In this document: piece after piece, positions 50,463 to 64,000 of the stretch | Numbering within the stretch: position 1 is the stretch's first letter | Layout: the number at the start of each line of letters is the position of its first letter | Source of the DNA: Thalassotalea sp. HSM 43 | Lineage (GTDB): Bacteria > Pseudomonadota > Gammaproteobacteria > Enterobacterales > Alteromonadaceae | Direction of reading: 5' to 3' | Length of the DNA: 64,000 nt | Assembly: GCF_004752005.1 (NCBI RefSeq) | Contig: NZ_CP038493.1 | Location: 434,001 to 498,000, forward strand | Notes under the pieces: model-generated | What the model was told of the DNA's origin: nothing | Database searches by the model: none | The model's input: the letters and a program-made list of their open reading frames with translations, nothing else | Program-made: the position numbers and the translations under genes

Positions 50463-53114
50463 TTAGTTATTGCCAGGCTCATATTGAAATGCTTCGGTTA
50501 AGCGTATATCAGCTAACGAGGCACCTAAATGCACCTTAAACTGGCCAGCCTCGGCCTTCCAGTCATTAGCCTCGACACTCCAAAACGATAAATCGCGTTG
50601 ACTCAACACCATAGAGACTTGTTTGCTTTCGCCGGGCTGTAAAAATACTTTAGCAAAACCTTTAAGCTCTTTAATTGGTCGCTCAACACTGGCTTCGACA
50701 TCCTGCAAATATAATTGCACCACTTCAGCCCCAGCTCGTTTGCCGGTGTTTTTAACATCGACGGTGACTTGATATAGGCCGTTAGAATCATCATCGGAAG
50801 CGTACTCGCCTTTGCTTATATCGATGTTTTCAAAGGTAAAATCAGTGTAGGACAAACCATGGCCAAACACGAACTCAGGCTCAATGGCTTGTTGCTCAAA
50901 CCAGCGATAACCGATAAATACACCTTCTTTGTATAATGATTCGGTGGCATTGTAGTCATTCAGCGCGATTGCCGCGGTATCTTGCAATCGTTTTGGTAAG
51001 GTAATTGGCATTTTGCCACTTGGATTCACATCACCAAATATCACATCAGCAAAAGCATTACCGGCCTCAAGGCCTCCGTACCAGCCCCAAACAAGTGCGT
51101 TCGCTTGCTCAGCCCATGGCATTTCAACCGCAGAGCCAGCGACCATAAACAGCACGGTATTCGGGTTGGCTTGAAGCAGATTGTTGATCACTTCGTCTTG
51201 CGAGCCCGGTAGTTTCATATCTGTACGGTCAATAGCTTCTCTGTCATCGCCATGGCTTAAGCCACCAAAATAAATGACCGCATCGGCTTTCGCTGCAGCA
51301 GCGGTATATTCTGCCTTGTCGACAAAAAATGCACCGGGTGCATCCCAACCAAGCACAAATTCACCGTTACCTTGATAACTAATGGCAAATTTATGATTTT
51401 TATCGGCACTCAAATTAACGCTAATACTGGCTGTTTGCTTGCTGTCAGAGTCCAGCTCTAAAACCGTATCACCATCAATATTAACGCTTATTTTCCCTTG
51501 ATATTCGAGTTTTAACAGATGCTCGCCACTTTCAAATGGCTTTACCTCAGCGTCCATCTCAATAAACTCGCTGGCATTGTCAGAGCCACTTTTATAGCTG
51601 GCATTAATGATCCAAGACTCTTCTAATAACTCTGACTTAGATGCATCACTAAAACGTTTGTAGGTCCAAGCGGGCGTACCGGTCCAATGTTTCGAGGCGA
51701 TATAATCGGCCGCAATTGGCGCTAAAGAACTCGAACGAGCGCGCATCACCTCGATATTAACCTCGTCACCCAAATAGTTTTTCAGCCCTTGCAATGGCGT
51801 GATTTCATATAACGACTTCACCTCTGAAGAACCGCCGCCTAAGCCATGGATACGATCGGCGTTAGGACCGAGTACTAAGACGTTTTTAATGTCTTTACTC
51901 AATGGCAAAACGTTGCCGTTATTTTTTAGCAACACCACGCCTTGACTGGCAATATGTCGCGCTGCTTGTTGATGCGTTTTGGTATTGCGACTGCCCGGTA
52001 AACGTGACTCATCCCACATACCGACTCGATGCATCAAACGTAAGATGCGTCTGACTTTGTCATCAACAACCGACTCAGAAATTTTACCGTCTTTTAGCAT
52101 TTGCAAAAACGGCTGCGCCAAAAAGTAGTCGTCATAAGACTCAACATTGGTACCCATTTCTAAATCCAAACCATTAACCGCAGCATCATAGGTATTGATA
52201 TCGACGTTCCAATCGGTGAGCAATACGCCGTCAAAGCCCCAATCGCCTTTTAAGATGTCCATCACCAGATGTTTCGATTGGTTGGCATTGGTGCCATAGT
52301 ATTGGTTGTATGCGCCCATAACAGAATACACACCGCCTTGCTTAACCGCCGCTTCAAAGGCCGGCAAATACACTTCGCGTAAAGTACGTTCATCCGGTTT
52401 GGCATTAACACCAATACGGTTTAATTCTTGGGTATTGAGCGCATAGTGTTTTGCGTTGGCGGCAACGTCTTGCGATTGAATGCCTTTAACTTCAGGTACC
52501 ACAAGACTGGCGGCAAGAAACGGGTCTTCGCCCATGTATTCAAAATTACGACCGTATAACGGCAAGCGCGCCAAATTTACACCGGGACCTAAAATGATAT
52601 CTTTACCGCGATGCCGCGCTTCTGCCCCTAACACACTACCATGTAGGTGCGCCATTTCCGGATCAAAACTGGCTGCAACCGTGGTTAAATGCGGTAAATA
52701 AGTGGCATGATCATCGTCCCAACCTGCGGCATTCCAGGTGTCGCGTTCGTGTTGATAACGAACACCATGTGGGCCATCCGATAACCACAATTCTGGGATA
52801 CCCAAACGTTCAATGGCATTGACGTGGAACTTGCCACTGGCATGCACCAAAGATACCTTTTCTTCTAACGTCAATTTTGCCAGCAACTGTTCAACGTCTT
52901 GCTCTACCTTGGCTAACCGTGTTTGTTTGGCTTGCTGGTAATCCGCGCTATCAATGCTTTGTACTGTTGCTTGCACCGCTTGTTGAGTTTGCTCGGTTTG
53001 TTCATTTTGTTGTGTCGACTGCTTACACGCCGATAAACCAACAAGCACGAATATTGATGACGCGCCATATGTTATCGCTCGGCTTAATATCGAATGTTTG
53101 ATAGCGTTTTTCAT
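50463..53114 (-). CDS. glycoside hydrolase family 3 beta-glucosidase lipoprotein with PA14-like insert
   Basis: Exo-acting beta-glucosidase, 883 residues, predicted lipoprotein (signal peptide with lipobox LSAC, Cys30). After a Gln/Thr-rich linker (31-55) comes the GH3 N-terminal barrel: LWLSDGPHGVRY (109-120), AKHYALN (221-227), and nucleophile Asp301 in GVLLTDWNVD. The C-terminal domain is split by a PA14-like insert (about 440-590, ending LGWDAPGAFFVD). GDDREAIDRTDMKLPGSQ continues the GH3-C domain. A Fn3-like domain closes the protein (790-870). PA14-containing GH3 enzymes cleave beta-glucosides from oligosaccharides. It is located in the operon between the CBM9-like and ADP-ribosylglycohydrolase-like genes. 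Confidence 0.92.
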   Translation of the reverse strand: MKNAIKHSILSRAITYGASSIFVLVGLSACKQSTQQNEQTEQTQQAVQATVQSIDSADYQQAKQTRLAKVEQDVEQLLAKLTLEEKVSLVHASGKFHVNAIERLGIPELWLSDGPHGVRYQHERDTWNAAGWDDDHATYLPHLTTVAASFDPEMAHLHGSVLGAEARHRGKDIILGPGVNLARLPLYGRNFEYMGEDPFLAASLVVPEVKGIQSQDVAANAKHYALNTQELNRIGVNAKPDERTLREVYLPAFEAAVKQGGVYSVMGAYNQYYGTNANQSKHLVMDILKGDWGFDGVLLTDWNVDINTYDAAVNGLDLEMGTNVESYDDYFLAQPFLQMLKDGKISESVVDDKVRRILRLMHRVGMWDESRLPGSRNTKTHQQAARHIASQGVVLLKNNGNVLPLSKDIKNVLVLGPNADRIHGLGGGSSEVKSLYEITPLQGLKNYLGDEVNIEVMRARSSSLAPIAADYIASKHWTGTPAWTYKRFSDASKSELLEESWIINASYKSGSDNASEFIEMDAEVKPFESGEHLLKLEYQGKISVNIDGDTVLELDSDSKQTASISVNLSADKNHKFAISYQGNGEFVLGWDAPGAFFVDKAEYTAAAAKADAVIYFGGLSHGDDREAIDRTDMKLPGSQDEVINNLLQANPNTVLFMVAGSAVEMPWAEQANALVWGWYGGLEAGNAFADVIFGDVNPSGKMPITLPKRLQDTAAIALNDYNATESLYKEGVFIGYRWFEQQAIEPEFVFGHGLSYTDFTFENIDISKGEYASDDDSNGLYQVTVDVKNTGKRAGAEVVQLYLQDVEASVERPIKELKGFAKVFLQPGESKQVSMVLSQRDLSFWSVEANDWKAEAGQFKVHLGASLADIRLTEAFQYEPGNN

Positions 53115-53122
53115 GATCTGTT

Positions 53123-53908
53123 TTAGTTACCTTTAACCAACGTTAGCCGAGAAAATACATCGGCGGTTTTATAGCCTAAATTTTTATCGCCTGCGATTGG
53201 CGTAATCGTCGTAGAGCCGAGAAAGTGTTCTCTGACTTTACTGCCGTCATTGTCACAATAGGCGAGCATAAAGCCCAACACTTTACCTTCTTGCAAGGTG
53301 ACCCGCGACGTCTGCCACTTGTCGAGCGGTTTGTTATGATCAAATGAATCATTATGAATTTCTAACGCCACTTCCCAAATGATGCCATTAGGTCGTTTAT
53401 CATCACGACGCCACTGGCTTTTGACATGAGAATTTAGGGCTAAAAATTCCGGCTCACCGTTTTCCAGTTGACCACCGATATCAATCGCTTGATTATCCAA
53501 AGCAATATGATAGGCAAATGCATTATAGTCAAAGGTATGGGAACCACCGGACGCGTCTTCATCTATAAACACTTCTAACGCGTCATCATCCCAATAGAAA
53601 AACAGTGGGTCGGCGTATTGGTCAAACAGCACGTCGTCGCTCATCTCTACCAATAAGTACACATATTTTTCGTCCCAAGCGACCTTGAATCGCCCAGAAA
53701 AATCATCGCTTTTAGGGTAATTGCCAATCATGTCTTGATCCAATGGATACCATTGCCCCTGCTGCCATACGGGATCATCCGCGTCGGCATTTATGTTAAT
53801 CGCTTGCTCGCTATATGGGGCTGTAAATGATTGCTTTTCAGGTTTCTGCCAGCTTAAACTTTGCCAACTTATGGTCATTAATAAAACAAGTACAATGGCA
53901 CGCAACAC
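53123..53908 (-). CDS. secreted CBM9-like carbohydrate-binding protein
   Basis: A 261-residue exported protein (signal peptide MLRAIVLVLLMTISWQSLS). Residues 30-255 resemble the family 9 carbohydrate-binding fold: ADDPVWQQGQWYPL, FSGRFKVAWDEKYVYLLVEMSD, FFYWDDDALEVFIDEDASGG, FAYHIALDN and GIIWEVALEIHNDSF are the usual landmarks. There is no linked catalytic domain. It could present or bind the substrate in the periplasm, or have a catalytic role not yet known. It is eight bases ahead of the GH3 gene and 48 after GH94. Confidence 0.83.
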   Translation of the reverse strand: MLRAIVLVLLMTISWQSLSWQKPEKQSFTAPYSEQAININADADDPVWQQGQWYPLDQDMIGNYPKSDDFSGRFKVAWDEKYVYLLVEMSDDVLFDQYADPLFFYWDDDALEVFIDEDASGGSHTFDYNAFAYHIALDNQAIDIGGQLENGEPEFLALNSHVKSQWRRDDKRPNGIIWEVALEIHNDSFDHNKPLDKWQTSRVTLQEGKVLGFMLAYCDNDGSKVREHFLGSTTITPIAGDKNLGYKTADVFSRLTLVKGN

Positions 53909-53956
53909 GGCCTTTCTCCTTACATTGACAAAACATTGATAAATTATGTTTTGGCT

Positions 53957-56341
53957 TTATGGTCTCGGTATTTCGATATCCAACATATAATGTTTTCCTG
54001 CCTCTATCGCCCTGAAAACATTGCTATTTAATAATACATTATTAATATGAACTCGTGTTTTCTTTACCTCAGCGCGGCGAATATTAAAGGTGAAATAAGC
54101 CCCTCTAAAATTTCGAGAACCGCTGCACAGGTTCCAAGCTTGCGGTAGGTTAGGATTGATTCGCAAACCATCGCCCTCACCTTTTAAACCACAAATATGC
54201 TCGATAAAACATCGATACACCCATGCGATAGTGCCAGTGTTTATTAATTGGCTTGAACGCCCTGTGTATTCTGGGTGCAATAAATAGGCACCGCGGTAGT
54301 AGTTGGGAATAAAATTAGGTAACTGTCCACGGATAAGCGCATCGTTTTCATCGGGGAGCATTTTTCGCAATACATCATACGCCATACTCGACTCGCCTAT
54401 TTGCAATAAACTATAGGCGTAAAACGCACTGGCATGATTATAAATGGAACCATTCTCAGCACTCCCCGGGAATTTTTGTGTAATGCGTCCAACGTCGTCA
54501 CGCATACCGGTATAGGCTGGAGCCAGCATCATCACCCCATAAGGCGTGTGTAATCGTTGCATCACTTCATGCAGCAAGGTAAAGCGTTTTGCTGGTGTTG
54601 CCGCACCAGATAATATAGCAAAGCTTTGCGGGTTGAGATAAATACTACCTTCAACATCGTTTTTGCAACCAAAAATAACACCAGCATCGGTTTTGCCTCG
54701 AGCATACCAACCGCCATCCCAAAATACTTTATTAACCGCCTTATTTATCGCCTGACTGGCGTATTCAAACTCGGCCAACTTACTGCTTGGGTATTCAGGC
54801 AGGTAGGTTTTACAGATATAACACCATGTTTTAATCGCATAACTTGTTGCAAGTGACAACCATGCCGATACCCCTTTACCCTTATAGCCGACCATATTCA
54901 TCGGGTCGCACCAATCGCCTTGGGCAATATAACTCAATCCTTGCTCGTCAGTGGCATCAAGTAGGTATTGCATCGCCAGTTCAACATGCTCTGCGAAACT
55001 GACGTTTTCGGCCGAATCGCCAAACGCCAAGCGCTGCTGCAAAATATCGCTATCATTGGTTTCATCGAGGTATACCTGCAGCGTCAATGGCAACCAAACA
55101 CAATGGTCTGCATGTGGTACCTGATTAATGTATTTCAATGTCGCATTTTGCTCGATTAAAATACCATCGGGCATACGACCATCGCGGTGTTGTTGGCTCA
55201 CCGCATGCAATAACGCTTTGCGAGTTTGCTCTGCGTTAATAAAAGCAATACCGATACTGTCTTGCAAGTAATTACGGGTTTGTGGGTCGGTGGTTAATCG
55301 TTGGCATTGATCATGATAAAAAATCTGTCTTGGCAGCCAGTTATTAACAAACTGGTTTAAGGCGTCATCCGGGCTATCGATAACAAAATGTTGTTGTGCT
55401 TGCTGCTGATAGGCTTGATAGCGCTCGCTGGCTTTACTAAAACCATCGGGATCATCAATGTATTTGGCTTTGATAGCCTCGATTTCGTCGGCATCTTTGG
55501 CTGGCCCAAACACCATTTTTACCGAAAAAACCTGTTTTTCATCAAGAACTTGTCGATATTGCAAGCAAGCCAAAGGAGTTTCATATATGGCTTCATCATT
55601 GGCTAATCGGGCTTTTTTTAAGGCGTCCGGCATCGATAAATGGCCATCACCTTCAAATTTTTGTTGATTGGCACAATAGCCATACGGCTTTTTCGATGTT
55701 AACAGATAGGTTTTGTCTTTTAGTTCTTGATTAGCAAAGTAATCATCAACCTTTTGATAAGGGGTAATAGACGTAGCGACGATGCCTTCTAATTCGTCTG
55801 CGTATTGTGCTTGTTGATTCATCCAGCTCATATAGCCGATTGAAAAATAGGGGTAAATACTTATTCTACGGGTTTTCTTCCCTAAGTTTTTCACCTCTAA
55901 GGTATACAGTTCACAAATATCTTCGCTGTCGATTTGTAAGGTCAGTAATACTTCGATACCGGATAAACGGTAACACCACTGAATCGATGACATGCCTTGG
56001 CGAAATCGGTAAAACTTGGCCTTTTGTCGACACGGTTGGTGTGGTGCCGAAAAAATTTCGCCAGTGTCTTCGTCTTTGATATAGACAAAACGGCCAGGTG
56101 CGTGGGCAAAGTACGGCATTTCCGGTTGCATAAAGGTCGTCGCTTCAATACTTGGACCGCGAGAATATTTGCCAGGCTCAGGTTGCATAAACTGCGCCTG
56201 CAAATAACCTTGGCAATTTGCCTGAACACTCAACTTTGGGTTAAACAAATAGGCCGATGCTAACGGCATTACCGTGGCATCTCGCAAGTTAATCGACGCT
56301 TGCTTTTGCTGAGATTGGAAATCAAAGTTCACTTTAGCCAT
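53957..56341 (-). CDS. GH94 glycoside phosphorylase, cellobionate-phosphorylase-like
   Basis: Cytoplasmic inverting phosphorylase, 794 residues, no signal peptide. Glycosyltransferase-36/GH94 layout: N-terminal beta-sandwich (1-290), helical linker, (alpha/alpha)6 barrel (330-730) and a C-terminal jelly-roll. The catalytic region is GDWCDPMNMVGYKGKG (475-490); cellobiose and chitobiose phosphorylases usually read GDWND there. Arg619 and Lys623 (GRITQK) lie before SAENGSIYNHAS. From memory, GDWCD and an RxxxK pair mark cellobionic acid phosphorylases, where the basic pair holds the gluconate carboxylate. Predicted reaction: glucosyl-gluconate + Pi to glucose 1-phosphate + gluconate. Eight-base overlap with the symporter gene upstream shows coupling. 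Confidence 0.86.
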   Translation of the reverse strand: MAKVNFDFQSQQKQASINLRDATVMPLASAYLFNPKLSVQANCQGYLQAQFMQPEPGKYSRGPSIEATTFMQPEMPYFAHAPGRFVYIKDEDTGEIFSAPHQPCRQKAKFYRFRQGMSSIQWCYRLSGIEVLLTLQIDSEDICELYTLEVKNLGKKTRRISIYPYFSIGYMSWMNQQAQYADELEGIVATSITPYQKVDDYFANQELKDKTYLLTSKKPYGYCANQQKFEGDGHLSMPDALKKARLANDEAIYETPLACLQYRQVLDEKQVFSVKMVFGPAKDADEIEAIKAKYIDDPDGFSKASERYQAYQQQAQQHFVIDSPDDALNQFVNNWLPRQIFYHDQCQRLTTDPQTRNYLQDSIGIAFINAEQTRKALLHAVSQQHRDGRMPDGILIEQNATLKYINQVPHADHCVWLPLTLQVYLDETNDSDILQQRLAFGDSAENVSFAEHVELAMQYLLDATDEQGLSYIAQGDWCDPMNMVGYKGKGVSAWLSLATSYAIKTWCYICKTYLPEYPSSKLAEFEYASQAINKAVNKVFWDGGWYARGKTDAGVIFGCKNDVEGSIYLNPQSFAILSGAATPAKRFTLLHEVMQRLHTPYGVMMLAPAYTGMRDDVGRITQKFPGSAENGSIYNHASAFYAYSLLQIGESSMAYDVLRKMLPDENDALIRGQLPNFIPNYYRGAYLLHPEYTGRSSQLINTGTIAWVYRCFIEHICGLKGEGDGLRINPNLPQAWNLCSGSRNFRGAYFTFNIRRAEVKKTRVHINNVLLNSNVFRAIEAGKHYMLDIEIPRP

Positions 56342-57743
56342 GTTGATTGCCTTCTCCAGCTAGGGGAATTGGGGGGTTATTATTGTCCATCGGGTTATTG
56401 TCGTTCGCCTTTCTCGTTTTTAGTTGTTGCTGGATATCCGTTAGCCGCTTTTCTGTGAGTGGGTAAATTTTGATTAATAGCACCGACAATAAGGCAAATA
56501 CTCCGGGGATCACCGTCATCAGCAACACAATACCGGCTTGCGATTCACTGCTTTGCTGTTGATTGGCGACGTAGCCAAGGGATGCCAGTAGATAACCAAT
56601 TAGCGCCCCCGCCAAAGCGCCGCCGAGTTTTTGTGAAAATGCCGCAGCAGAAAATATCATCGCCGTTGCACGACGGCCGTTTTTCCATTCAGAATAATCT
56701 GCTGAATCGGCATACATTGAAAACACCAATGGCGATTTAGGCCCCAAACAAAAACCAATAATAATCTGGCACGCATACATCAGGCCGATGGCGTCTTTTG
56801 GAATAAAATAGAAAGCCATCGAAAATGCGCTGACTAAGGTCATTAAAATCAACAACAACACTTTTTTATCAAGATAGCGGCACATAAAGGGTGTCGCAGC
56901 CGCCCCGCAGGCCAATGCCAATAGGTAAACCATAGAAAAGCTACCGATCAGATCTTCTCGTTCGACAAAATACTTAAAGTAAAAGGTACCGGTGCTGGCT
57001 CGTAATGAAATGGTCATCATGATGATAAGCGCCAAAGCAAACAACACCAGCCAAGGCTTGTTTGAACCCAGATCGCGAATATCTTGCCAGACACTGCTTT
57101 GTTGGTTCTGCGGTGGTGCTATGCGCTCACGACAACTGCGAAATGTGAACCAAAATAATATTGCGGCGATGACACCGTATAACGCCATCGTTAATTGCCA
57201 GCCCAGGGCCTCATCACCAGCGCCTAACATAATCACCAACTCTGGGGTGATATAAGCAACTAAAGAACCACCAGAAAACGCACCGATAAAACGAAAACTT
57301 GTCAACGATGTTCTGTCTTTACTGTCATCGGTGATAACACCAAGTAACGCACCATAAGGAACGTTAATAAAGGTATAGGCTAACATCATGAATATATACG
57401 TTGCATACGCCCAAACCACTTTACCTGAATCTGAGACATCAGGAACGGTGAAGGTTAATACCCCGGCTGCAGCGATAGGTAAGATGCCCCACAGCAAATA
57501 CGGTTTAAATTTCCCCCAGCGTGTTTGCGTCCTATCGGCGATTGCGCCCATGATAGGGTCAGAAAAGGCATCAATTAAGCGGGTAACCAACATCATGGTG
57601 CCCACAGTTGCTGCCGGCAAACCAAACACATCGGTATAAAAAATAAAGAGGAATACATCGAATACGCGCCAATAGAAATTGGAAGCTACATCGCCTAACG
57701 CATATCCGGCTTTTTCATTGAAGGATAATTTTGTGGTACTCAA
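56334..57743 (-). CDS. GPH-family (MFS) glycoside:cation symporter
   Basis: Inner-membrane sugar transporter of the glycoside-pentoside-hexuronide family, 469 residues, about 12 transmembrane helices. Family marks: YALGDVASNFYWRV (residues 13-26), the MelB-type motif RLIDAFSDPIMGAIADRTQTRWGKFKPY (first half at 50-68, second at 69-78), and FINVPYGALLGVITDD (near 123-138). It is the first gene of the minus-strand operon and overlaps the GH94 start by eight bases. It probably imports the disaccharide phosphorolysed by GH94. A -10/-35 pair and a LacI-type operator lie 190-235 bases upstream. Confidence 0.9.
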   Translation of the reverse strand: MSTTKLSFNEKAGYALGDVASNFYWRVFDVFLFIFYTDVFGLPAATVGTMMLVTRLIDAFSDPIMGAIADRTQTRWGKFKPYLLWGILPIAAAGVLTFTVPDVSDSGKVVWAYATYIFMMLAYTFINVPYGALLGVITDDSKDRTSLTSFRFIGAFSGGSLVAYITPELVIMLGAGDEALGWQLTMALYGVIAAILFWFTFRSCRERIAPPQNQQSSVWQDIRDLGSNKPWLVLFALALIIMMTISLRASTGTFYFKYFVEREDLIGSFSMVYLLALACGAAATPFMCRYLDKKVLLLILMTLVSAFSMAFYFIPKDAIGLMYACQIIIGFCLGPKSPLVFSMYADSADYSEWKNGRRATAMIFSAAAFSQKLGGALAGALIGYLLASLGYVANQQQSSESQAGIVLLMTVIPGVFALLSVLLIKIYPLTEKRLTDIQQQLKTRKANDNNPMDNNNPPIPLAGEGNQHG

Positions 57744-58308: not shown

Positions 58309-61300
58309 ATGAAGTCTTACAAGTTCAACAAAACAAAGTTGGCCTCTAGCCTTTCTTTGATTTTGGGTGCTTCTGTTGTACTTCCTGCACATGGGGAAGA
58401 AGAATCAGCCGTCGAGGAAGACGTAGAGGTTATTGAGGTCACGGGTATACGTGGCTCACTAACCAAAGCAATGGATATCAAGCGCTCTAGCTCTGGTATC
58501 GTTGACGCCATCAATGCCGAGGATATCGGTAAGTTCCCAGACTCTAACCTAGCAGAATCGTTACAACGTATCTCTGGTGTTGCTATTGACCGTGACAACG
58601 GTGAAGGTAGCCAAGTTACTGTTCGTGGTTTTGGTCCGGATCGTAACCTAGTGTTACTAAATGGTCGTCAAATGCCAACTACGACCGGTGGTCGTTCATT
58701 TGATTTTGATAACATCGCGTCTGAGCTTGTATCTGGTGCTGAAGTATACAAAACAAGTGAAGCATCTATTGCAACCGGTGGTATCGGTGCAACCATTAAC
58801 ATCCTAACTCACCGTCCATTAAACAAGCCTGGTATGACGGCGACGTTCGCGGTTAAAGGTATGGATGATTCGTCTGCAGATGATGGTGATATCACACCAG
58901 AAATGTCAGGTTTGTATTCAAACACCTTTATGGATGACAAGTTTGGTATTTCAATCTCTGGTAGCTATTCAGAGCGTGAAAGTGGTAACCAACAAGCAAT
59001 GGTTGGTACCGGCTGGCGTACATTCCCAGCACGTATTAACCAAGATTGGAGTGGCTCAAACGCTGGTTGGGGTGGTGTTCCATACGAGAACCAAGTAAAC
59101 CGTCCAGATCCAGCTGGTGATGCAAACTACTCTGTACCACAAACAACAATTTATCGTTTTGAAGAACAACAACGTGAGCGTATTAACGGTCAGTTGGTGT
59201 TGCAATACGCACCAAACGATAACATGACATTTACCCTTGATTACACTCATATGAGCAACGAAGTTGATCGTCAGTTCAATGAGGTATCAGCTTGGTTTAC
59301 ATTCGCTCCTTCTGAGAACGTTTGGACCGATGGCGACGTATCTTCACCGTTATTCTATGAAGAAGATTACGCAGCTAACGGTATCGGTAACCAAGATTTA
59401 TCAATGGCGACCGGTGACTCTGCAACCAAAGCTGAATCTGATTCAATCGGTTTTAACTTTGCATGGCAAGTTAACGACAGCTTATGGTTAGAAGTGGATC
59501 ACCACTCGTCTGACGCTGAAGAAACGCCAAACAGCCCATACGGTAGCTCAAATACCTTATCAACTGCGGCATTTATACGTGAACAAGCGGCAACTGACTT
59601 TACTCGCGACCTTCCTATCTTGGCGGTACGTGGTTCAAGTACAGTAACGAAAGCCGATTACCTTGTTACCGGTTCATTCTTCCGTAACGATGATAACCGC
59701 GCAGAAATCGATCAAACCCAATTTAACGGTAAGTTAGAGCTTGACGAGTTTGGTAGCATTGATTTTGGTGCGAGCTACATGAAAGCTGAAAAACACAACC
59801 GCGCCGTTCAAGTTCAACGTAACGACTGGGGTGGTGTAGGTGCTGCTGGTGACTTAGCGGATATCGCAGGTGCCACTGAAGGTGTACACAGCAAGTTTGA
59901 TGACGTAGACGGTGGTGACTTTAAAGATCATCCTGACGGTCCTGACGATTATGAAATCGTTGACTACTACTTTGCTTGGGATTTCGATGACCTACGTAGT
60001 TATGCTGAAGCAAACTACACGCCTGACAACCTAAGTGGCCTAGTTGGTGATTGTGGTACTCAATTCTGTGCCTCAACAGATTATGCGGCCGATACTGACC
60101 GTTTCGTTGAAGAAGAAGTAACCGCATTCTACCTACAATGGAACTACGAAGGTGAAATCGGCGATATGCCATACGATATTCACATCGGTGTTCGTTACGA
60201 AGAAACTGAAGTTGACTCGAAATCTGTAGTACCAGTATACGATGGTGCTAATTGGGAAGGTGATACCGAGATTGTACTACAACAATCTGGTCAAGAAGCA
60301 CTTAGCCGTTCTGGTGAGTACGATCACACCTTACCGAATATCAACTTTAACCTAGAAGTTACTGAAGAGATCATCTTCCGTGCAGCCTACAGTGAAACCA
60401 TTGGTCGACCTTGGTATGGCGACATTCAAGGTGGTACAACCGTTGGTACACAGTTTAACAAAGGTGGCGCAAGCGGTAGCTCGGGTAACCCTAGCTTAGA
60501 ACCACTTGAATCAGATAACTATGACCTTTCACTTGAATGGTACTACGATGAGTCAAGTTATGCGGCTATCGGTTACTTCAGAAAAGACGTAACCAACTGG
60601 ATCACCAATGGTCAAATAAGAGAAAACTTATTTAACATTGATAACCCAGTAGATGGTCCTAAATACAATGAAGCTGTAGCCGCTGTTGGTGGTGATGCAG
60701 GTCAGCAACGTCAATGGATTTACGACAACTACGGCGATCGCCCAGAAGTGTACATGCAAGACGGTAAACTTATCATTGAAGGTGTTGAAGAAGACAACGA
60801 AGTTGAATTCTTAATCAACGTTCCGGTAAATGATAGCGTTGAAAATGAATTTGACGGTTTCGAATTCGCTGTTCAACACGTTTTCTGGGATACCGGTTTC
60901 GGTATGTTTGCCAACTACACTATGGTTGATGCTGGTGACGATTACGACAACCGTATCATTACCGGTGGTGATTACGACAATACCGATGTATATGGTTCGA
61001 ATGACCAAGTACAAGAAGGTATTTCTGATACCGCCAACCTTGTACTTTTCTATGAAAACTACGGTATTTCAGCACGTTTAGCCTATAACTGGCGTGATGA
61101 TTACTTAGAAAGTAAAGGTAATGACACCGGTGCTAACCCAACATTCGTTGAAGAGTACGAGCAAATCGACTTTAACGTCAGCTATGAATTTGCCAACATT
61201 GAAGGTCTAGCGGTCTTCTTCGAAGGTATTAACATTACTGATGAATATCGTCGTAAGCACGGTCGTAGCAAGTACCAAGTAATGAACGTAGCCCAACAGG

Positions 61301-61338
61301 GTGCACGTTACAGCTTAGGTGCACGTTACACCTTCTAA
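58309..61338 (+). CDS. TonB-dependent receptor, proteobacterial carbohydrate type
   Basis: Outer-membrane active transporter, 1009 residues. Signal peptide at 1-29 (SLILGASVVLPAHG). The TonB box lies in EDVEVIEVTGIRGSL (near 37-51). The plug domain (55-180) includes FPDSNLAESLQRISGVAIDR and VTVRGFGPDRNLVLLNGRQMP. A 22-strand barrel follows, with aromatic-rich strands ending in YSLGARYTF, the C-terminal Phe needed for Bam assembly. The size and plug resemble receptors of sugar loci in Caulobacter, Xanthomonas and Alteromonadales rather than siderophore receptors. Under operators O2 and O3. Predicted substrate: the oligosaccharide processed by the divergent operon. A good ribosome binding site (GAGGG) precedes the ATG. 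Confidence 0.95.
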   Translation: MKSYKFNKTKLASSLSLILGASVVLPAHGEEESAVEEDVEVIEVTGIRGSLTKAMDIKRSSSGIVDAINAEDIGKFPDSNLAESLQRISGVAIDRDNGEGSQVTVRGFGPDRNLVLLNGRQMPTTTGGRSFDFDNIASELVSGAEVYKTSEASIATGGIGATINILTHRPLNKPGMTATFAVKGMDDSSADDGDITPEMSGLYSNTFMDDKFGISISGSYSERESGNQQAMVGTGWRTFPARINQDWSGSNAGWGGVPYENQVNRPDPAGDANYSVPQTTIYRFEEQQRERINGQLVLQYAPNDNMTFTLDYTHMSNEVDRQFNEVSAWFTFAPSENVWTDGDVSSPLFYEEDYAANGIGNQDLSMATGDSATKAESDSIGFNFAWQVNDSLWLEVDHHSSDAEETPNSPYGSSNTLSTAAFIREQAATDFTRDLPILAVRGSSTVTKADYLVTGSFFRNDDNRAEIDQTQFNGKLELDEFGSIDFGASYMKAEKHNRAVQVQRNDWGGVGAAGDLADIAGATEGVHSKFDDVDGGDFKDHPDGPDDYEIVDYYFAWDFDDLRSYAEANYTPDNLSGLVGDCGTQFCASTDYAADTDRFVEEEVTAFYLQWNYEGEIGDMPYDIHIGVRYEETEVDSKSVVPVYDGANWEGDTEIVLQQSGQEALSRSGEYDHTLPNINFNLEVTEEIIFRAAYSETIGRPWYGDIQGGTTVGTQFNKGGASGSSGNPSLEPLESDNYDLSLEWYYDESSYAAIGYFRKDVTNWITNGQIRENLFNIDNPVDGPKYNEAVAAVGGDAGQQRQWIYDNYGDRPEVYMQDGKLIIEGVEEDNEVEFLINVPVNDSVENEFDGFEFAVQHVFWDTGFGMFANYTMVDAGDDYDNRIITGGDYDNTDVYGSNDQVQEGISDTANLVLFYENYGISARLAYNWRDDYLESKGNDTGANPTFVEEYEQIDFNVSYEFANIEGLAVFFEGINITDEYRRKHGRSKYQVMNVAQQGARYSLGARYTF

Positions 61339-61360
61339 ACGAATCGTTTAGGTAATACAT

Positions 61361-61398
61361 GAAAGCCGCAGGAGACTCTCCCCTTCTCGCGGCTTTCA
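61361..61398 (+). terminator. hairpin after the TonB-receptor gene
   Basis: A 9-bp stem GAAAGCCGC / GCGGCTTTC with a 20-base loop, followed by ATTTCC rather than a clean T-run. It may be a leaky terminator that lowers expression of the halogenase-SapC genes relative to the receptor, or a 3'-end stabilising hairpin. Confidence 0.6.
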
Positions 61399-61570
61399 TT
61401 TCCTCTAAAGCAATATTTTTATAACAAAAATTTTACTAAAGTGTTCGATTTTAGTGCCCTAATAGAGACAATTTCCTGACTAGGTATATTGTCACTGGAT
61501 TGGCAACTTTAAAGTCGATATAGTGACAAAGACGTCGAGTGCTTTACTAAGGTTTTTAATAAAAGGCAGT

Positions 61571-63124
61571 ATGAACCAATCTATTAAACATATCGTCATT
61601 ATTGGCGGCGGCAGCGCCGGTTGGCTAAGTGCTGGGATTATCGCTAGTGAGCATAAAACCGCAGCTGACAATGGCGTGCAAATTACCCTAGTTGAATCAC
61701 CTGATGTGCAAACCATTGGTGTTGGCGAAGGCACTTGGCCGTCGATGCGTCAGACCTTAAAAAAAATGGGAATTAGCGAGACCGAATTTGTCCTCAATTG
61801 TGACGCCAGCTTTAAGCAAGCGTCGGAATTTCGAAATTGGACACATGGCAATGGTGATAGCTACTTTCATCCTTTTACCATGCCCGCGGGTTATCATGAA
61901 ACGAACATTGCCGATTTTTGGCAACAGCACCGACAGCAAGTCAGTTTTGCCGATGCCACCACCAGTCAAAGTCATATTTGTCGCAATGGCTTAGCGCCAA
62001 AACAAATTTCGACCCCTGAGTACTCGTTTAACGTCAATTACGGTTATCACCTTGATGCCGGTAAATTCTCAACCTTTTTACAAAAGCATTGTTGTAGCAA
62101 ACTTGGCGTAAGTCATGTACTTGATCATGTTGTTAAAATAAACAGCCATGAAAATGGTGACATTAAGTCGGTATCAACGCGACAACATGGCGATATCGAA
62201 GCAGATTTATTTATTGATTGTACTGGCTTTAAATCCTTGTTACTTGGTGAGCATTACGGCATTGATTTTATCAGTCAAAAGCATGTGTTGTTTAACGATA
62301 GAGCCCTTGCGGTACAAGTGCCTTATGCAAACGATAACGAACCGATTGCATCACATACGATATCAACCGCGCAAAGTTGTGGCTGGATTTGGGATATCGG
62401 CCTACCGTCAAGACGCGGTATTGGCCATGTTTATTCAAGTGCGCACATCAGTGACGATGCCGCGGCTGCGCAGCTGCGCGAGTATATTCGCCCAGCGCTT
62501 GGCAATAAAGCCGACGATGTTGCCTTACGCCACATTAAGATAAACCCAGGTTATCGACAAAAATTTTGGCATAAAAACTGTGTCGCTATAGGTATGTCTG
62601 CGGGGTTTATCGAGCCTTTAGAAGCCTCCGCTCTGGCGTTAATTGAACTGTCGGCGAAGATGATTGCTGAGCAACTGCCCGCCAATAGACAGGTCATGGA
62701 TATTACCGCGAAACGTTTTAATACCAAGTTCAATCATCGTTGGCAGCGCATTATTGAGTTTTTAAAACTGCACTATATCTTGTCACAACGAGACGACAGT
62801 CAATATTGGCGAGATAACCGCAGCGCAGAATCGATACCAGAGCACCTGCAAGAATTAATGCAACTGTGGCAATACCAGTCACCTTATGGTTATGATAGTG
62901 ATCACAGTGATGATTTGTTCCCTGCAGCCAGCTTTCAATTTGTGTTATATGGCATGGGCTTTGAGACACAATTACCAAATAGACAAAAACGCCATGACAA
63001 AAGTGACATGGCCAATACGTTTTTTAACGACAATATAAAACAAACACAGCAATTGATGCGTTCCTTAGGAAGCAATCGAGAGCTCATTAACAAAATTAAG
63101 AAGTACGGTTTCGCCAAACTCTAA
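61571..63124 (+). CDS. flavin-dependent tryptophan-halogenase-family protein
   Basis: A 517-residue FAD-binding protein of the tryptophan halogenase family. Start at MNQSIKHIVIIGGGSAGWLS is standard; a longer in-frame start adds 16 residues. GGGSAGW (residues 12-18) binds FAD. Lys82 in SFKQASEFRNW and Glu348 in SAGFIEPLEAS align with the catalytic Lys79 and Glu346 of PrnA. The WxWxIP motif reads GWIWDIGLPS (271-280), a variant with Gly where Pro is expected. The real substrate is unknown; related proteins are typically encoded beside TonB receptors with SapC and cupin genes. No flavin reductase is adjacent. SapC follows 37 bases later. Confidence 0.88.
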   Translation: MNQSIKHIVIIGGGSAGWLSAGIIASEHKTAADNGVQITLVESPDVQTIGVGEGTWPSMRQTLKKMGISETEFVLNCDASFKQASEFRNWTHGNGDSYFHPFTMPAGYHETNIADFWQQHRQQVSFADATTSQSHICRNGLAPKQISTPEYSFNVNYGYHLDAGKFSTFLQKHCCSKLGVSHVLDHVVKINSHENGDIKSVSTRQHGDIEADLFIDCTGFKSLLLGEHYGIDFISQKHVLFNDRALAVQVPYANDNEPIASHTISTAQSCGWIWDIGLPSRRGIGHVYSSAHISDDAAAAQLREYIRPALGNKADDVALRHIKINPGYRQKFWHKNCVAIGMSAGFIEPLEASALALIELSAKMIAEQLPANRQVMDITAKRFNTKFNHRWQRIIEFLKLHYILSQRDDSQYWRDNRSAESIPEHLQELMQLWQYQSPYGYDSDHSDDLFPAASFQFVLYGMGFETQLPNRQKRHDKSDMANTFFNDNIKQTQQLMRSLGSNRELINKIKKYGFAKL

Positions 63125-63161
63125 TTATTAAGAAAACCGTCAATTTTACTGGGAGAACACC

Positions 63162-63899
63162 ATGGCAAATCACGCCCTATTAAATAACGTTGAGCACAAA
63201 GACGTCAAAGTTATCACCAAACGCAGCGCTCAATATGGCGACAACATGTGGTATTCAATGACTTTCCCGCAAGAATTTCGCAGTGCCCAAGCATACTACC
63301 CTATTTTCTTTACCAAAGACCCAGGTACAGGCAAGTTCATTTGTGCCGCATTATTTGGTTTTGCCGAGCAAGAAAACTTATTCTTAAACGACGATGGCTG
63401 GCACGCGCGTTATATTCCTATTTCGGTATTACGTCATCCATTTTTGATTGCCCGCCAAACTGTTGAAGTGGATGGTCAAGAGCAAGAGAAACGCATGTTG
63501 ACCATTGATATGGATAACCCGCGAGTAAACAGCGACGAGGGTGAAGAGTTATTCCTCGAGTTTGGTGGTAACAGCGAATACCTAGACCGCATGGCAAGCA
63601 TTATGGAAGCCCTGCACTTTGGCGCGCTCGATGGCATGAAATTCTGTGAGCGCTTGGTTGAGCTAAACCTGATTGAACCATTCACTCTCGATGTAACGCT
63701 AAACGATCAAAGCAAGCATCAAATGCTTGGTTTTTATACCATTAGCGAAGAAAAGCTAAATGATTTGGACGTCAGCGTATTACAAGAATTAAAAGAAAAA
63801 GGTTACTTACAAGCCATCTATATGCAAATCGCTTCGCAAAGTAATATCAACAACTTGCTTGATAAGAAAAATGCGCAGGTCGCTGCGACAGCCGTGTAA
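63162..63899 (+). CDS. SapC family protein
   Basis: A 245-residue protein of the SapC family (named from an S-layer-linked gene of Campylobacter); biochemical role unknown. Marks: YYPIFFTKDPGTGKFICAALFGFAEQEN, split here as YYPIFFTKDPGTGKF (residues 46-60) and ICAALFGFAEQENLFL (61-76). Also ARYIPISVLRHPFLI (near 85-99), DMDNPRV, and FCERLVELNLIEPFTLDVTL (near 161-180). No signal peptide. Ribosome binding site GGGAGA is five to six bases upstream. It sits between the halogenase and the cupin gene, the usual cassette order in TonB-receptor loci. Confidence 0.88.
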   Translation: MANHALLNNVEHKDVKVITKRSAQYGDNMWYSMTFPQEFRSAQAYYPIFFTKDPGTGKFICAALFGFAEQENLFLNDDGWHARYIPISVLRHPFLIARQTVEVDGQEQEKRMLTIDMDNPRVNSDEGEELFLEFGGNSEYLDRMASIMEALHFGALDGMKFCERLVELNLIEPFTLDVTLNDQSKHQMLGFYTISEEKLNDLDVSVLQELKEKGYLQAIYMQIASQSNINNLLDKKNAQVAATAV

Positions 63900-63916
63900 A
63901 CCAAATAGGCGTTGTT

Positions 63917-64000
63917 ATGCTGGACATTAAAACCCAGGTAAAACAAATAGCAGGCGTTACTCCAGAGGCGATCCCTGAATCGGTCATTGCCTCTACGGAA
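63917..64000 (+). CDS. N-terminal fragment, probably a cupin-like (JmjC/cupin_8) protein
   Basis: Only 28 codons are inside the window: MLDIKTQVKQIAGVTPEAIP and eight more, open to the edge. It starts 17 bases after the SapC stop, so it belongs to the same transcript. The residues are too few to prove a family. The N-terminal pattern and the position after halogenase and SapC suggest the cupin_8/JmjC-like protein that commonly completes this cassette. Confidence 0.45.
   Translation, partial: MLDIKTQVKQIAGVTPEAIPESVIASTE

Follow-up and report, generated by a model that had tools for sequence, protein, structure and literature searches.

What do a flavin-dependent halogenase-family enzyme, a SapC protein and a cupin do directly behind a TonB-dependent receptor (TBDR) for sugars? 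The question is raised by the right-hand end of a 64,000-nucleotide stretch of Thalassotalea sp. HSM 43, hereafter the window, which comprises bases 434001–498000 of a single-contig genome of 4.01 Mb. An earlier note on this DNA had read the three genes as a tight operon behind the receptor and as a set that recurs in sugar loci, and had offered modification of the receptor or another envelope protein, or chemistry on the imported glycan, as possible functions. Our answer, in which confidence and doubt are about evenly balanced, is that the cassette modifies the co-encoded receptor post-translationally, in the cytoplasm, ahead of its export. The genes concerned are given below in window numbering. 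The last of them were read from stretch L007 (L-numbers are the labels of fetched genome stretches), which extends past the window end, with L007 7918–8934 corresponding to 63917–64933.

58309..61338, + strand: TBDR, 1009 residues; TIGR01782 at 646 bits (cut-off 310), with Plug and barrel Pfam domains
61359..61399, + strand: strong hairpin just 3' of the TBDR stop codon; fold of 61339–61420, −25.7 kcal/mol, z −4.55
61571..63124, + strand: halogenase A, 517 residues, ATG start; PF04820 at 404 bits (cut-off 21)
63162..63899, + strand: SapC, 245 residues; PF07277 at 236 bits
63917..64933, + strand: FIH-like Cupin_8 oxygenase, 338 residues, the first 84 bp of its gene (to 64000) in the window; Cupin_8 at 230 bits
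64930–66450, beyond the window: halogenase B, 506 residues, with the motif WQWRIP; PF04820 at 630 bits (cut-off 21)
66491–67201, beyond the window: DUF6445 (PF20043) protein, 236 residues; 258 bits

The halogenase, SapC and cupin assignments were all confirmed by Pfam, but the set is larger than first described. To the right of 64,000, where the earlier note had suggested reading on, the Cupin_8 gene is completed and is followed by halogenase B and DUF6445. Spacing within the cassette is tight, with gaps of 37, 17, −4 and 40 bp from halogenase A to DUF6445, but 232 bp and the hairpin divide it from the TBDR. This hairpin is possibly an attenuator or RNA-processing site that would keep cassette expression below that of the receptor. 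A GTG at 61523 opens a longer frame for halogenase A; the alignment with the structure 2PYX begins at residue 2 when the protein is taken from 61571. A terminator-like match with 12 pairs lies 3' of DUF6445 (L007 11319), in a scan whose total was no higher than in shuffled sequence.

Association with receptors is the first line of evidence. Twenty halogenase stretches, lying in twelve genomes, were hand-picked for variety from at least 57 non-self places, and 20 arbitrary stretches from five genomes served as the control. A TBDR lay within 2.2 kb in 17 of the 20 halogenase stretches and was present in one arbitrary stretch (Fisher p 2e-7), as judged by a TBDR profile that was trained on fetched stretches and leans to halogenase-linked receptors. 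That single arbitrary stretch is itself a halogenase locus, and TIGR01782 places likewise fall in it alone among the 20. At least two halogenases were found in 10 of the hand-picked stretches, SapC in 6, Cupin_8 in 6 and DUF6445 in 5. The 16 named loci found with halogenase A held a TBDR in 15 cases and SapC in 12. Approached from SapC in close relatives (20 stretches, from 22 non-self places less two that share a stretch), 16 had a halogenase and 17 a TBDR. Orientation is also consistent, since 76 of the 97 halogenase genes that share a stretch with a TBDR lie downstream of it on the same strand, while 15 are on the opposite strand. The recurrence beside receptors proposed earlier is thereby upheld.

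The same picture emerged at the genome level. Across 200 Pseudomonadota genomes, a halogenase was found at E 1e-40 in at least 16, SapC in 72 and DUF6445 in 7; the top seven candidates per genome were scored, and halogenase counts are therefore lower bounds. SapC was present in 15 of the 16 halogenase genomes and in 57 of the 184 others (p 9e-7), and DUF6445 was confined to halogenase genomes (7 of the 16, none of the 184; p 5e-9), both values being uncorrected for genome kinship. Of the SapC places in halogenase genomes, 16 of 30 were no more than 6 kb from a listed halogenase, as were 10 of the 13 DUF6445 places. The genome of Caulobacter vibrioides, which served as a control, also matched PF04820, PF07277 and TIGR01782. 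Plasmids carry the module too. Of 91 plasmid records with a match, five annotated ones were read, and each has a TonB-dependent receptor beside the halogenase, one with an intervening gene. The halogenase is accompanied by SapC, a cupin, a xylanase and glycoside hydrolase (GH) families GH115 and GH43 in one Sphingomonas record, by SapC and GH95 in a second, by SapC, a cupin, GH9 and GH43 in Sphingobium, by SapC in Catenovulum, and by a beta-glucosidase in Pseudoalteromonas, where SapC is not listed. At one double halogenase–SapC locus (L054 13636–16286), the receptor reads as two overlapping frames, either a broken gene or an assembly error.

The second line of evidence is that cassette and receptor have diverged together. 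The comparison set 60 receptors that have a halogenase no farther than 6 kb away against 42 that do not, the 102 being 105 TBDR frames less three of at most 750 residues. On the receptor tree the linkage label required 13 changes, as against 32.5 when shuffled, and halogenase and TBDR distances were correlated (Mantel r 0.71 for n = 39, where the null never exceeded 0.25, and 0.60 for n = 38, with a null maximum of 0.23). Two receptors that nest near halogenase-linked ones in the tree have SapC alone (L062) or Cupin_8 alone (L182) in their vicinity, from their position a possible partial loss of the cassette.

Conservation of the active sites is the third. Halogenase A carries K82, E348 and the GxGxxG motif for flavin adenine dinucleotide (FAD), as had been noted, and these residues are not idiosyncratic: the fetched stretches yielded 103 full-length homologues (104 halogenase frames less one short frame, in L025), of which 99 have Lys82 and 102 have Glu348. 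The four frames in which Lys is replaced (L090 7780–9246, L093 7753–9381, L095 10641–12164 and L105 10535–12070) each adjoin intact halogenases; these degenerate proteins are perhaps non-catalytic partners. The WxWxIP motif is intact in halogenase B and altered in halogenase A, which reads WIWDIGLP from residue 272. The altered motif had been flagged as a feature of this protein and is indeed present, but it is not peculiar to halogenase A, and an intact-motif halogenase lies in the same operon. W[IVT]WDI[GA] is the mark of a 41-member halogenase clade (100 % local support), whose members have G at the P position in 31 cases, A in 8 and P in 2. From the catalytic Glu on, the clade reads EASA (27), EATG (8), EATS (4) or EATA (2), and in the 62 homologues outside it IP with ESTS is commonest (38).

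These changes bear on the chemistry of halogenase A. The enzyme may be a true flavin monooxygenase, a hydroxylase and not a halogenase, working in a cassette of mixed hydroxylation and halogenation, which would be compatible with receptor modification. We consider this a serious possibility, though one we lean against. The replacement of P by G or A in 39 of the 41 clade members and the departure from the usual ESTS would fit a hydroxylase, and according to the excerpted text of PMC5945002, WxWxIP has been suggested to prevent monooxygenase activity. Halogenase A is also weakly similar to QhpG, a named flavin-dependent monooxygenase, and soil and plant isolates are among the sources of its relatives. 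Against this stand the retained Lys and Glu of halogenation and the two clade members that have kept IP.

The other cassette proteins can be placed less evenly. The Cupin_8 protein has the protein hydroxylases FIH (E 1.4e-21) and JMJD5 as its nearest solved relatives and keeps the HxD...H iron site (H157, D159, H241) invariant in 7 of 7 sequences; oxygenase activity is predicted. In DUF6445, a candidate 2OG-Fe(II) oxygenase, an HxD...H...R pattern is invariant in the three sequences aligned, and no PDB sequence matched the protein. The AlphaFold model of SapC is confident (predicted local distance difference test score, pLDDT, 93.4), and SapC found no significant sequence relative among solved structures, nor its model a VIA-align match; its role is perhaps substrate presentation. 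A further 20 SapC places were hand-picked from genomes without a strong halogenase match. SapC also occurs within far longer open frames, with a C-terminal extension in L084, L085 and L086 (482–656 residues) and an N-terminal one in L074 (521 residues); these long frames gave no other Pfam match, and no TBDR or halogenase was found in the four stretches. In L053 and L056, the profiles found neither a TBDR nor a halogenase near SapC, whose neighbors resemble, by length, a TetR-type regulator and a resistance-nodulation-division (RND) efflux pair.

A signal peptide was read by eye at the TBDR N-terminus and none was seen in the other five proteins, therefore the cassette enzymes should be cytoplasmic. 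The route that we infer, in substrate, chemistry, SapC function and benefit alike, would begin with newly made receptor. FADH2 for the two flavin-dependent enzymes would come from a general flavin reductase: none was seen in the cassette, and a single PF01613 gene lies about 1.6 Mb away, other reductase families not having been searched. The unfolded receptor would be held by SapC or presented by it to the enzymes. Halogenases A and B would act on its aromatic side chains, B probably by halogenation and A by halogenation or, given its changed motifs, hydroxylation, and the FIH-like Cupin_8 and DUF6445 proteins would hydroxylate further side chains. The receptor would then be exported and assembled, and its modified residues might alter glycan binding or stability, or shield exposed loops. 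If this is correct, the cassette brings a new level of regulation to glycan uptake in marine and plant polysaccharide degraders, gives a function to DUF6445 and to receptor-linked SapC, and offers enzymes for site-specific halogenation or hydroxylation of proteins.

Several observations weigh against receptor modification. By profile, three of the 20 halogenase stretches lack a TBDR, and the make-up of the cassette is variable (SapC 6/20, Cupin_8 6/20, DUF6445 5/20). Shared operon inheritance alone would yield much of the co-divergence, which is therefore support and not proof. Most directly, 728 column and residue-class tests over 12 independent pairs gave no aligned receptor position whose residue clearly goes with the presence of the cassette; the best nets were 5.3 pairs for an Asp column and 4.6 for a Trp/Tyr column (receptor residue 1001), with 4.6 in the reverse direction. 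In the beta-glucan receptor clade, Trp329, Trp649 and Trp928 are present in 18 of 18 members and Trp507 in 17 of 18. They remain candidates for the modified sites, but all four also occur in L160, a receptor that this genome encodes without linkage to a cassette. The missing signal could be explained by modification in trans, by sites in loops that do not align, by clade-specific sites or by a different substrate. The receptor option of the earlier note has gained from co-divergence and from the phage parallel described below, but lacks a residue that clearly follows the cassette.

A different protein substrate is one such explanation. The cassette might act on some other protein of the locus that is secreted or placed in the envelope, for example a glycoside hydrolase or a further surface protein. 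The loci do hold glycoside hydrolases, and the residue scan named no clear receptor site, yet the TBDR is the recurrent partner while hydrolase families vary from locus to locus, and most halogenase genes follow a TBDR on its own strand, with the 15 on the other strand as the minority. We judge this reading unlikely.

The glycan context bears on a small-molecule substrate. A laminarin-type beta-glucan utilization locus flanks the cassette (window 50463–57743 and L007 11417–18548), with GH3, a family 9 carbohydrate-binding module (CBM9), GH94 and a major facilitator superfamily (MFS) transporter on one flank, and a GH3 and two GH16 on the opposite flank. Six PF04820 genes occur in the genome, paired at three receptor loci, together with ten TIGR01782 matches (one below the cut-off), three of which are at halogenase loci. 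By their neighbors, the present locus (GH16, GH3, GH94) points to beta-glucan, the second (GH97 and a pullulanase-type enzyme) to alpha-glucan and the third (GH20) to chitin or GlcNAc. Glucans and chitin have no aromatic ring, and chemistry on the imported glycan, as proposed earlier, is therefore the weaker option.

Halogenases classically belong to secondary metabolism, and the enzymes could instead make or alter a small molecule, such as a halogenated indole or an aromatic carried on the glycan, that the receptor imports or that serves in signalling. Related enzymes brominate free indole in vitro, according to the excerpts of PMC5945002 and PMC7336383, but the former describes the indole activity of one of them, BrvH, as low and indole as perhaps non-native. 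A small-molecule substrate is also less expected because separate halogenase pairs are kept at three receptors in one genome, where a common metabolite would not call for one set per receptor. Among 103 neighbor proteins (107 less four long ones), 134 families were found, of which the 25 commonest are mostly transport, glycan and regulatory families, and no typical biosynthetic-cluster family is among these 25. With ring-free glycans besides, a small molecule is about as improbable as another protein of the locus. Plain co-regulation, in which the enzymes have some general role in cells growing on glycans and share with the receptor only its promoter, would suit the gap and hairpin before the cassette and the halogenase stretches that lack a TBDR, but is very improbable given a linkage that holds across glycan types and across Alpha- and Gammaproteobacteria and that follows receptor clades.

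Modification of a surface protein has a parallel in phages. A halogenase homologue was found in 65 phage records, and 13 cyanophage-type loci from differently named phages were hand-picked and read. In 12 of the 13, a 2-oxoglutarate (2OG)-Fe(II) oxygenase lies within 5–6 kb of the halogenase homologue (one by Pfam; none in L211). The binomial value of 1.6e-6 for this proximity overstates the case, as the phages are related and not randomly drawn; as background, an annotated 2OG gene lies no more than 5 kb away for 27 % of the P-TIM40 genome. In nine loci (L206–L210, L212, L213, L216 and L218, in the last on the opposite strand) the halogenase has genes for tail fibres, tail-fibre assembly or structural proteins nearby, and JmjC/Cupin_8 proteins were found in L210, L212, L213 and L216 when 20 proteins from eight loci were scanned. 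A DUF6445 match in L207 falls below threshold (19.5 bits, cut-off 24). L211, L215 and L217 do not fit the pattern, and in L214 the gene stands among neck, terminase and tail-sheath genes. A third halogenase-like gene in P-TIM40, at 183746–184885 in the segment 178996–184885 (L222), closely follows a 1458-residue DUF4114 protein and has no annotated 2OG gene within 5 kb.

The phage modules share with the receptor cassette the pairing of a halogenase homologue with a 2OG oxygenase, in four loci with JmjC/Cupin_8 proteins, and adjoin tail-fibre or structural genes. They differ in that SapC was matched in one unannotated phage record only, that identity to halogenase A is 25–35 % among the 60 matches listed, and that in the seven phage halogenases examined the W[VW]-type motif ends in IP, VP or TP and is accompanied by ESNG or ESTG. 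The unannotated record, MT835646.1, from human feces, matches both halogenase A and SapC and may be bacterial DNA. Phage genes of this type are treated as host-derived or metabolic in the excerpts of PMC3037559 and PMC10452541, and one excerpt of PMC11337851 offers the speculation that virus–host receptor interactions may be influenced by a halogenase linked to phage. Decoration of virion adhesins by these halogenase and 2OG sets is possible. Both systems might even belong to a general, unrecognized class of protein-decorating modules, built from flavin halogenases, JmjC/Cupin and 2OG-type oxygenases and acting on surface-exposed binding proteins, which in Pseudomonadota would be outer-membrane glycan receptors and in cyanophages tail fibres or structural proteins. 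This generalization is tentative and, on balance, doubtful. Were it true, halogenated and hydroxylated residues would be routine on bacterial and phage surface proteins, and orphan halogenases of the BrvH/Xcc4156 type, as well as DUF6445, would have a native role.

Comparison with known systems places modification of the receptor beside several precedents. The Cupin_8 protein resembles FIH and JMJD5 in relationship and in its iron site, and differs in sitting in a bacterial operon with halogenases. QhpG and LodB are flavin enzymes that act on protein Trp, a precedent for such enzymes working on protein side chains; halogenase A matches their profiles weakly (34.3 and 27 bits), far under the NCBIfam equivalog cut-off of 240 for QhpG and the cut-off of 400 for LodB, and was rejected as a member of either family. 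The nearest structure to halogenase A, 2PYX (653 bits across residues 2–517), also carries WIWDIGLP, and we take its source species to be Shewanella frigidimarina. This Joint Center for Structural Genomics structure is, in the excerpts of PMC7336383, unpublished and called an unnamed halogenase with no function given. MibH (5UAO) is reported to act on Trp only inside its cognate peptide. MibH is likewise a PF04820-type enzyme (152 bits to halogenase A), but is distant and belongs to lanthipeptide biosynthesis, not to a receptor locus. A literature search that covered few subscription journals found no work joining halogenase, SapC and TBDR.

For halogenase B, the nearest PDB entry is Xcc4156 (6Y1W, 665 bits) and the third nearest BrvH (6FRL, 454 bits). 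Both enzymes act on indole and not on free Trp, their native substrate is unknown, their active sites are roomy or open, and a peptide substrate has been hypothesized, according to the excerpts of PMC5945002 and PMC7336383; a second halogenase gene adjoins that of BrvH (PMC5945002, excerpts). The available text of these papers treats single enzymes and was found to mention neither a receptor nor TonB. The linkage described here provides halogenases of the BrvH/Xcc4156 type with a concrete candidate substrate, the receptor encoded beside them.

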